The notes under the pieces: generated by a model | Seen by the model: only the letters and a program-made list of their open reading frames with translations | Databases searched by the model: none | What the model was told of the DNA's origin: nothing | Source of the DNA: a virus | Length of the DNA stretch: 64,000 nucleotides | Virus record (IMG/VR): IMGVR_UViG_3300035682_000031 | Coordinates: 1-64,000 of that record | Strand: one strand, 5' to 3' | Program-made: the position numbers and the translations under genes | Part shown: piece after piece, positions 60,939 through 64,000 of the stretch | How positions within the stretch are numbered: the first letter of the stretch is position 1 | Layout of the letters: every line of letters begins with the position of its first letter

Positions 60939-60991
60939 ACCTGAACCCCCGCTCGCGCCAAGATTTCAACCAAATGTTCTGCCTGTGTCAT
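60935..60991 (-). CDS. 18-residue micro-peptide linking two genes
   Basis: An ATG at 60991 overlaps the HNH gene stop (TGATG) after AAGGAATAACAACTG, and the 18-codon frame (MTQAEHLVEILARAGVQV) ends in an ATGA overlap with the next start. It may serve chiefly to carry ribosomes between the two genes. Confidence 0.4.
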   Translation of the reverse strand: MTQAEHLVEILARAGVQV

Positions 60992-61242
60992 CAGTTGTTA
61001 TTCCTTCCCCGGTTTTTCTTAACTGGTAGCAACCGAATATTTTTCGGATCGTCCAGCGCACCGCCGTCTTTAACTGCTTTGATATGATCCACGTCTTTGC
61101 CCTTGAGCGCAGCCGCACCATGTTTCTTTTCCAACGCATACCGTACTCGCCCGAGGGCTGCACGCTTTGCTTTCTGTTCGGGGCGCGCGTTGTATGCCGA
61201 GTGTTTCGTACCTGCACCGCCTCGTTTTTTAGTAGTGGTCAT
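60991..61242 (-). CDS. Small HNH endonuclease
   Basis: An 83-residue basic protein. KDVDHIKAVKDGGALDDPKNIRLLP has the H-N pattern of small HNH nucleases (DH, then N about 14 residues later), followed by NRGRNNN. No zinc-binding Cys pairs, as in compact phage HNH proteins. It might nick DNA during replication or packaging, or be a mobile remnant. Confidence 0.7.
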   Translation of the reverse strand: MTTTKKRGGAGTKHSAYNARPEQKAKRAALGRVRYALEKKHGAAALKGKDVDHIKAVKDGGALDDPKNIRLLPVKKNRGRNNN

Positions 61243-62433: not shown

Positions 62434-64000
62434 CTAACAATCACCATACCTTTCCGCGAATTTTGCATCGCATTTTAGAGGTAAACCCTGAATCCAATCA
62501 GGACACGTTGTCATACAACCGACCATAAGGTCTTTGGTTTCTTGACCAAGTTCTGTCGGTACAACCACGGCAAATTCATCGTGTGTATTCAACTTTGGCT
62601 CGACACCGAGATCCATCATCCAAATGCCTTGGTGTTTCATAATATCGAACGCAATCGCTTGGGTGCAGTTATGAACAATCACCGGACCACTGTCGCCTTT
62701 GACAACAAATCTAGTTTTTGGTCCGCAGTTAAGGATGTCGTAGACCCGAAAACGTCCTGTCCGCGTTCCAACCGATAACGAATTGTGCTGTTCGGAACAC
62801 CCGACAGTTGACTTAACAACACCACGTCCAAACCAATGCTGTTTCGTCTGTTCAAACAATTTCGCTTTCTCGTTACCCAATGGCAGTTCTTTGGTGAATA
62901 CCCCGCGTTGTTGTCGACACGATCCAAGTCCGTACCTGGCCGATACGATGGCCCCATGTCCGCCCAAAACGCTTCGAACGAACCCTGCCATGCTTCGCAT
63001 ACTGTAATTCCCCGCCCACCGTAATTTCCCCACGACTGATGGGGCGGCAGTTGGCAACGATCGCGCATACTCCGCCAAACCCAATAGACCGGATGTTTTG
63101 ACATGCCGTGTGTCTTTGGTAGCGACTGTAACATTTTCGTCATGCACCCACAATTGGGCGTCCCGCCACGTTTTGTTTCCTTCGCAACGTCGGCGCCCAA
63201 CTTCACACACTCGTGGCCACAGTCGCATAGGTATGTCCATGCCCACTTCAAACCTGTCGTGTGATGCCTCGATACACATGTCAACATTCCGAATTTCTGG
63301 CCGGTAAGGTCTCGGCTGTTGTGATGCACTTTGCCACTTTTGATACTCATTCAATACCTCGTGATCTGGAGTCATAAAAACACCGTCTACTGTAACACAA
63401 TCCTGTTCTGATTTGGTAAGTATTCCACCATGAGTTACAAAACTATCCCCGTCGTGAACCTTATCAGATAAACGTACGTCTTGTATTTTCTTCCACCCGT
63501 GGTCCGTCAAAACCAGAGTATCCTCGGCTATGCAGTTTTCAATGAACTTACCACCGTAGATGTACGTTTTGACTTTAGAACGACCGCGAATCGAATCAAA
63601 CACAATCGAGCGTTTACCCTCTTCATCCAACTGCACACGCAGCCCTGGGTAAGTCATCCAAGTGCCACTCGGCAAACGAATTGATGGCACAACTTCCCCA
63701 AACAAAACTCGGCTGCCGTCGTAGTAAATGGCGTCTTCCTTCGGGCCGAGGAAATAACCTTGACCACCAATAGCCATGTGCTCCAAAACTTCTTGTGCTC
63801 GTTTCCATGACCGCACGATATGTGCGTTCTTGCGACGGTACGTCACAATCGCGAGTTCGGACTGCTCATCCATCAGATTCACGCCGTAAGTAGTTTTGGC
63901 AAATGTACCGAACTTCTTCTTACCCAAGCCGTAGCCTGCACCGAGTACTGTTGCCTTACCTGCCGGACGCTGGATACTGCAATATGGCTCAACGCCTTCC
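62434..64000 (-). CDS. DNA polymerase family A, C-terminal part interrupted by an intein
   Basis: Open from the right edge (frame from 63999). The extein reads through SIQRPAGKATVLGAGYGLGK, polymerase motif B (R, K and YG), then on to YIYGGKFIEN, where an intein begins. After the intein it resumes CTQAIAFDIMKHQ and reaches motif C in KLNTHDEFAVVV (HDE), ending at 62434. The extein of homologues runs directly EN-CTQA. Together with the N-terminal part at 1-1054 this makes one split-by-map polymerase. Confidence 0.9.
   Translation of the reverse strand, partial: EGVEPYCSIQRPAGKATVLGAGYGLGKKKFGTFAKTTYGVNLMDEQSELAIVTYRRKNAHIVRSWKRAQEVLEHMAIGGQGYFLGPKEDAIYYDGSRVLFGEVVPSIRLPSGTWMTYPGLRVQLDEEGKRSIVFDSIRGRSKVKTYIYGGKFIENCIAEDTLVLTDHGWKKIQDVRLSDKVHDGDSFVTHGGILTKSEQDCVTVDGVFMTPDHEVLNEYQKWQSASQQPRPYRPEIRNVDMCIEASHDRFEVGMDIPMRLWPRVCEVGRRRCEGNKTWRDAQLWVHDENVTVATKDTRHVKTSGLLGLAEYARSLPTAAPSVVGKLRWAGNYSMRSMAGFVRSVLGGHGAIVSARYGLGSCRQQRGVFTKELPLGNEKAKLFEQTKQHWFGRGVVKSTVGCSEQHNSLSVGTRTGRFRVYDILNCGPKTRFVVKGDSGPVIVHNCTQAIAFDIMKHQGIWMMDLGVEPKLNTHDEFAVVVPTELGQETKDLMVGCMTTCPDWIQGLPLKCDAKFAERYGDC
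62668..63534 (-). other. Intein in the polymerase, 289 residues
   Basis: Starts at Cys (63534-63532) after polymerase ...GGKFIEN and ends at Asn (62670-62668) before Cys+1. Block A: CIAEDTLVLTDHGWKKIQDV. Block B: VFMTPDHEV with the TxxH residues. Block F: VYDILNCGPKTRFVV. Block G: GPVIVHN-C, with His-Asn-Cys. All splicing residues are present. Between B and F lie ~190 residues that do not resemble an endonuclease in this frame; an HNH gene occupies the +1 frame instead. Confidence 0.92.
62679..63350 (-). CDS. HNH homing endonuclease encoded out of frame inside the intein
   Basis: A 223-residue protein in the +1 frame relative to the intein, on the same strand, starting at 63350 after GAGGTATTGA and stopping 11 bases before the intein end. 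Parts in order: a Zn/AP2-like start RDLTGQKFGMLTCVSRHHTT with CDCGHE and CGCM, then the HNH core YWVWRSMRDRC, YGGRGITVCEAW, DLDRVDNNAGYSPKNCHWV, then a C-terminal DNA-recognition helix region (LSQLSGVPNSTIRYRLERG). This is the full layout of free-standing phage HNH homing enzymes. Confidence 0.92.
   Translation of the reverse strand: MSIKSGKVHHNSRDLTGQKFGMLTCVSRHHTTGLKWAWTYLCDCGHECVKLGADVAKETKRGGTPNCGCMTKMLQSLPKTHGMSKHPVYWVWRSMRDRCQLPPHQSWGNYGGRGITVCEAWQGSFEAFWADMGPSYRPGTDLDRVDNNAGYSPKNCHWVTRKRNCLNRRNSIGLDVVLLSQLSGVPNSTIRYRLERGQDVFGSTTSLTADQKLDLLSKATVVR

Follow-up and report, generated by a model that had tools for sequence, protein, structure and literature searches.

A family-A DNA polymerase gene on the minus strand of the window (here the whole stretch analysed, 64,000 nucleotides (nt) of the 65,222-base viral record IMGVR_UViG_3300035682_000031, G000, whose window and record positions serve as coordinates below) is interrupted by an intein of 289 amino acids, and wholly within this intein, in the +1 frame relative to the polymerase, lies a second open reading frame (ORF) encoding a predicted HNH-family endonuclease. 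We conclude that this is very probably a mobile splicing intein that, in place of an in-frame endonuclease domain, carries its homing endonuclease as an overlapping gene with translation of its own. The conclusion rests on the two ORFs themselves, the conservation of their layout, protein selection on the HNH frame, avoidance of stop codons in the polymerase frame (frame 0), a conserved start signal, and the predicted Hint fold of the intein (Table 1).

The intein and the ORF nested within it

The polymerase ORF begins outside the window, at an ATG at record position 64368, and in this frame only polymerase families match, together with PHROG_93 at the Hint N-part. The junctions read ...YGGKFIEN / C...VHN / CTQAIAF, with the Cys1 codon at 63534-63532, the last Asn codon at 62670-62668 and the Cys+1 codon at 62667-62665; frame 0 is open and continuous throughout the 867 nt (289 codons) of the intein, which is therefore not split into N and C halves in separate ORFs. 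The splicing motifs are complete (Cys1, block B TPDH, block F VYDILNCG, and block G VHN followed by Cys), as the original prediction, made from the sequence alone, had held, and their columns are invariant or nearly so among 39 sequences. The AlphaFold model of the intein consists of two confident Hint halves (residues 1-84 and about 260-290) with mostly disordered chain between them (86-255), and the leading Foldseek matches to this model are the Mtu RecA and gp41-1 inteins (probability 1.00, E ~0.01). Pfam and NCBIfam searches of the intein returned nothing useful. Homologues uninterrupted at the insertion site are abundant: in 481 phage records one place covers at least 80% of the joined exteins, and the intein-less polymerases listed are single pieces spanning the junction.

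The HNH ORF ends with a stop codon (62681-62679) 11 nt ahead of the splice junction, and its ATG (63350) stands just after block B, 5 nt behind a GAGGT; a GTG at 63329, the site used by the APSE-like group of relatives, is a possible alternative start. These positions agree exactly with the complete HNH gene, with its own ATG and GAGG ribosome site, that had been foreseen. The overlap, which had been thought to take in block F and most of block G, does cover block F and part of G, together with the linker, but it also extends over some 22 codons of the folded Hint N-part past block B. As further anticipated, frame-by-frame searches match HNH families in the +1 frame only (PHROG_374, 2.6e-51; PHROG_3377, 2.8e-40), and polymerase families and PHROG_93 in the polymerase frame only, so the endonuclease is not an in-frame domain of this intein.

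Table 1. Features of the polymerase intein and the nested HNH ORF, in window coordinates.
Feature	Positions	Strand	Basis
Phage family-A DNA polymerase ORF, C-terminal part, intein host	62434..64000	-	PHROG_7766 4e-22, PHROG_17 5.8e-16 (DNA polymerase)
Intein, polymerase frame (frame 0), 289 aa	62668..63534	-	Motifs read in sequence; full-length relatives; Foldseek top matches all inteins
Predicted HNH-family endonuclease ORF, nested, 223 aa, +1 frame, ATG start	62679..63350	-	PHROG_374 2.6e-51; orthologues at same position
Hint N-part (blocks A, B and ~25 residues past B), intein residues 1-84	63283..63534	-	AlphaFold predicted local distance difference test (pLDDT) ~92-96, residues 1-80
Block B TxxH (TPDH)	63361..63372	-	Sequence; T55/H58 invariant, 39 sequences
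GAGGT, Shine-Dalgarno-like, within intein Glu-Val codons	63356..63360	-	GAGGT before ATG kept in most relatives of the insertion-site group
TGA in HNH frame, directly before ATG	63351..63353	-	Sequence; previous stop at +181
Intein linker (residues 86-255), polymerase frame, disorder predicted, DNA shared with HNH coding	62770..63279	-	pLDDT < 50 over most; amino acids without evident constraint
Hint C-part (blocks F, G), overlapped by end of HNH ORF	62668..62757	-	pLDDT ~93-94, about residues 261-290; HNH stop position

A family of inteins with a nested HNH frame

Both frames match the same DNA in Shewanella phage SFCi1, in the APSE phages of aphid symbionts and in the Caulobacter phages RLK, RW, KcrB and GB2A. 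A direct scan of IMG/VR with the window intein alone as query found nothing, and a four-sequence alignment was needed to recover relatives, yielding 71 loci. When Hint and HNH profiles were placed on all frames of the loci, the HNH match fell in the +1 frame, nearly always beginning 202-229 nt past Cys1, with blocks F and G again in frame 0. A second, separate clade occupies another polymerase region (e.g. GKVMELA/CGYGGG; Sodalis SO-1, Salmonella SETP3) and carries its HNH in the +2 frame with frame 0 open (L006:3001-3903, L007:3001-3903, L052:2954, L057:2756, L060:2669, L066:2747, L074:562 and L076:4001). Frame 0 encodes the HNH in no intact copy of these sets. A further nine loci, each with frame 0 open, came from bacterial genome contigs (five with a strong +1 HNH match, two of the +2 layout and two short), and the frame-0 N-part used as query found no plasmid relatives. 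The nested +1 intein was also seen in an apparently different host gene or site (AALNKLLQIS / ... HN / CG(V/A)AYTD; L034:7292-8206 and L047:4001-4915), and so is not confined to the polymerase site.

Reduced copies occur as well. Mini-inteins that belong to these families but from which the HNH is deleted keep frame 0 (L063:4001, L066:4001, L069:3672, L075:2210, L077:4922 and L078:2903). L077 is what L062 becomes once exactly 531 nt (177 codons) are taken out of it, the loss apparently lying at a short ACCG repeat; the junction was read by eye, as the aligner had misplaced the 3' part. The copy at L073:4001-4924 is decayed, with an early stop in the HNH frame and another in the downstream polymerase.

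In a tree of 116 HNH proteins the 46 nested +1 copies, including that of the window, form one group (support 100/89) and the eight nested +2 copies another (99/97), both apart from the free-standing HNHs; two long-branch +1 sequences, L019_286 and L079, lie apart from the main group, in positions that are uncertain. A single nested clade separate from the free-standing proteins therefore indicates an old insertion. The proposal that a free-standing HNH gene had invaded the intein holds insofar as the gene is nested without breaking its carrier, but a local invasion does not fit this one clade. The nested arrangement is old, widespread and selectively maintained. Between L060 and L004 the inteins are 97.6% identical and the polymerase just downstream 86.5%, a contrast in sequence that hints at transfer of the intein, though the picture from other pairs is less clear, and intein and HNH seem to move as one element; such identities were taken from the downstream exteins only, the upstream ones being partly contaminated by neighbouring inteins at some loci.

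Stop codons in the two frames

Stop expectations were obtained by shuffling synonymous codons in the HNH frame. Over the HNH region of 56 non-redundant nested inteins frame 0 contains no stops where 363 are expected, and the third frame of the same inteins contains 684, against an expectation of 666. In the window the 223-residue ORF faces a polymerase frame with 0 stops, compared with 7.5 expected (none of 2000 shuffles is open), and a third frame with 9, compared with 10.8, which bears out the claim that some 220 codons stay open in two frames at once. As a control for ascertainment, loci were fetched by the HNH protein only, independently of frame 0: all 16 nested copies so obtained are open in frame 0 (0 stops, 116 expected), whereas among 60 free-standing HNH relatives that frame is interrupted in every one (1072 stops, 1095 expected). 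Relatedness among the sequences makes the events in these counts partly dependent on one another, yet the contrast remains very large. The two open frames are not due to chance or to sequencing error.

Alternative explanations

It could be supposed that no nuclease is produced any longer and that the HNH frame is the remnant of an ancient insertion, now tolerated only as a linker through which the splicing intein stays open, and the HNH-deleted or decayed copies (L063, L066, L069, L075 and L077, and L073 with its stops in both the HNH frame and the downstream polymerase) would suit such a history. The window HNH, however, is full length, and substitutions in the overlap fall mainly at HNH third positions. 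Counted by polymerase-frame codon position, L057 and L071 differ 8:10:32 in the Hint N-part, 91:36:26 in the overlap and 6:1:12 in the Hint C-part, and L042 and L044 differ 1:0:3, 30:3:6 and 0:0:2, i.e. in close pairs the Hint blocks vary at polymerase position 3 and the overlap at polymerase position 1, which is HNH position 3. From this shift across regions it follows that protein selection acts on the HNH frame, the intein linker being only kept open. As judged from these substitutions, the linker sequence is free apart from stop avoidance and the HNH protein is conserved, and the disorder that AlphaFold predicts for the linker agrees with this pattern. The start signal is likewise kept, with matching codon choice: among 28 members with the stretch DHEVx(N/D)(D/E), the NAT codon that makes the ATG is used in 27 and the GAG codon that makes GAGGT in 23, whereas codon use varies at the Asp and His beside them (19:9 and 16:12). 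We therefore consider a relic unlikely.

The HNH might also be made as a fusion to the intein N-half by programmed frameshifting and not by internal initiation, since the frames overlap and are one base apart. Against this, an HNH-frame stop (63353-63351) stands right before the ATG, and in nearly all relatives one is found at +160 or +181, so a frameshift would be possible only within a short stretch; with GAGGT and ATG conserved in addition, we regard this route as very doubtful.

That the linker, as read in the polymerase frame, has a function of its own as a protein domain seems highly improbable; the original prediction had named a linker that is a conserved endonuclease as something that would refute it. 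Frame-0 Blast similarity does continue across the linker, but conservation of the HNH imposes such similarity on the neighbouring frame; moreover the linker is predicted to be disordered, HNH fourfold sites within it change freely in more diverged pairs, and mini-inteins exist that lack it. The conservation of R..DG after block B was considered as an independent constraint on the frame-0 linker and dropped, as FG.LT in the HNH frame can impose it.

A sequencing or assembly error, by which an in-frame HNH domain would have been displaced through an indel, had been named from the outset as what could overturn the arrangement, and contig L051 does carry a frame-breaking indel, but this explanation is ruled out by a frame offset that recurs unchanged in dozens of independent contigs and in sequenced phage isolates, by the inability of any single indel to restore both blocks F and G and the HNH frame, by a frame 0 without stops throughout, and by homologues that already refute it. 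Nor is it credible that a group I intron removes the insert, as GenBank notes on SO-1 gp38/gp39 ('type I self-splicing intron') would have it, given that an Rfam search of the region at E up to 1 gave no match, the protein-splicing motifs are intact and the frame is open across the insert.

Some observations nevertheless weigh against a separately translated homing endonuclease in a mobile splicing intein. The HNH assignment is a prediction from PHROGs, without clear confirmation by Pfam, PDB sequences or PDB folds: the protein has no Pfam match (NCBIfam, too, gave nothing useful), its best indication among PDB sequences is a marginal match to I-HmuI (1u3e, E 0.091), a PDB fold search with its model was uninformative, finding no match, and it has LDRVDNN where the classical first His is expected. 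Nuclease activity is accordingly a prediction. The spacing between GAGGT and ATG is 5 nt in the window, where 8 is usual. The intein's Foldseek matches reach only modest E-values (about 0.01), since disorder takes up over half of the model. In some close pairs (L026/L028) the intein is less similar than the exteins.

Proposed mechanism

Splicing, internal initiation, cleavage and homing would combine as follows. Frame 0 of the polymerase mRNA would be read to give a polymerase carrying the 289-residue intein, whose Hint halves would come together round the disordered linker; the intein would then excise itself and leave an intact polymerase. Ribosomes would also start at the GAGGT/ATG just past block B and read the +1 frame, producing a free HNH-type nuclease; that the HNH is a separate enzyme nested out of frame in an intact intein, as first proposed, is now backed by the comparative evidence. 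By analogy with known homing endonucleases, the targets of this nuclease would be polymerase genes that lack the intein, cleaved close to where it inserts, and mending of the break on an intein-bearing template would spread intein and nuclease together. The HNH-deleted mini-inteins that keep frame 0 and the abundance of intein-less polymerases are consistent with such a cycle, which would explain how a homing nuclease can be produced independently of polymerase splicing. The overlap itself is a long natural one, with protein selection on one of its frames and no demand on the other but openness, and it has been kept for a long time in many phages.

Relation to known systems

Canonical inteins consist of a splicing domain with an in-frame endonuclease between blocks B and F, or are mini-inteins. 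The window element resembles endonuclease-bearing inteins such as PI-SceI (1lws) in joining a Hint splicing domain and a homing endonuclease in one element, but differs in that the endonuclease is a separate overlapping gene. Its closest counterparts are the polymerases of APSE-1 (P45/P46), SFCi1 and Caulobacter phages RLK, RW, KcrB and GB2A, whose intein and HNH are both homologous to those of the window, the HNH likewise in the +1 frame and at the corresponding place. SFCi1 shares the EN/C insertion site of the window, whereas the APSE and RLK inteins lie three residues earlier (GKS or GKL / CEN); the start codons of these relatives differ (GTG or ATG at +202), and unlike theirs the HNH tail of the window extends into block G. 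In APSE-1 (NC_000935) P46 is annotated inside P45, with both coding sequences (CDSs) present and the HNH truncated.

The original prediction left it uncertain whether such arrangements had been described, and they have in fact been remarked on, in phage methylases, in a brucellaphage terminase and through the APSE-1 P45/P46 annotation. The ShiLan domain and the Pacc40 gp60 insertion hide out-of-frame HNHs in phage methylases, with no detectable splicing domain (PMC11855218). They share with the window an HNH gene hidden out of frame and an insertion open in the host frame, but the carrier here is a clear Hint intein, which sets it apart from the ShiLan type. No ribosome binding site was found for ShiLan by its authors (PMC11855218), in contrast to the conserved Shine-Dalgarno-like start seen here. 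In our own survey Mycobacterium phage Pacc40 (L008, gp60, ~2501-2980) shows an out-of-frame HNH in a helicase/methylase with no splicing domain seen, as described (PMC11855218), and uninterrupted versions of gp60 are present in about 100 mycobacteriophage records. For the brucellaphage terminase, the accessible part of the source mentions in a single sentence an out-of-frame HNH, putatively encoded by an intein (PMC4422536); this is the same idea in another host gene, likened here by description only, and in that part of the source dual coding is not put to the test. In the accessible literature we found no account that joins conservation of a splicing intein with selection on an HNH gene overlapping it and with an internal start kept among relatives, so that the arrangement appears new as a conserved variant, priority being unsettled. 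Annotation misses or mislabels nested HNHs, as with the truncated APSE P46, the group I intron label of SO-1, and SFCi1 and RLK, which have no separate HNH CDS.

The neighbouring, apparently split intein

So-called 'fractured genes', reportedly described by Dassa in 2009, are said to be split inteins whose halves flank an endonuclease gene. The window intein resembles them in that a freestanding homing endonuclease gene is tied to an intein, but is unsplit, with frame 0 continuous. The upstream intein of the same polymerase has that look and apparently resembles the fractured layout. We see about an even chance that these elements represent an ancient, distinct class of two-frame inteins in phage polymerases, with the homing enzyme uncoupled from the splicing protein, that arose at least twice (+1 and +2) and was maybe a stepping stone to split inteins. 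Nested-frame inteins may lead to split ones by a route that the window suggests: were frame 0 lost inside the HNH gene, the intein halves would become separate ORFs, as in the second intein.

This second intein lies just beyond the window (record 65222-64257) and is apparently split, with an N-half ORF that stops at 64937-64935, an HNH ORF at 65056-64259, and a C-half that starts at the ATG at 64368 and runs into the polymerase ORF of the window. The same site and frame offsets (C-half +2, HNH +1), with a C-half ATG of its own, recur at L011:184-1400, L025:1871-3081 and L045:1335-2542, so the offsets are identical in four viruses. Shortly downstream of the polymerase, a small separate ORF of 83 residues (60991-61242, minus strand) has a weak Pfam HNH match (E 0.0058, below the cut-off).
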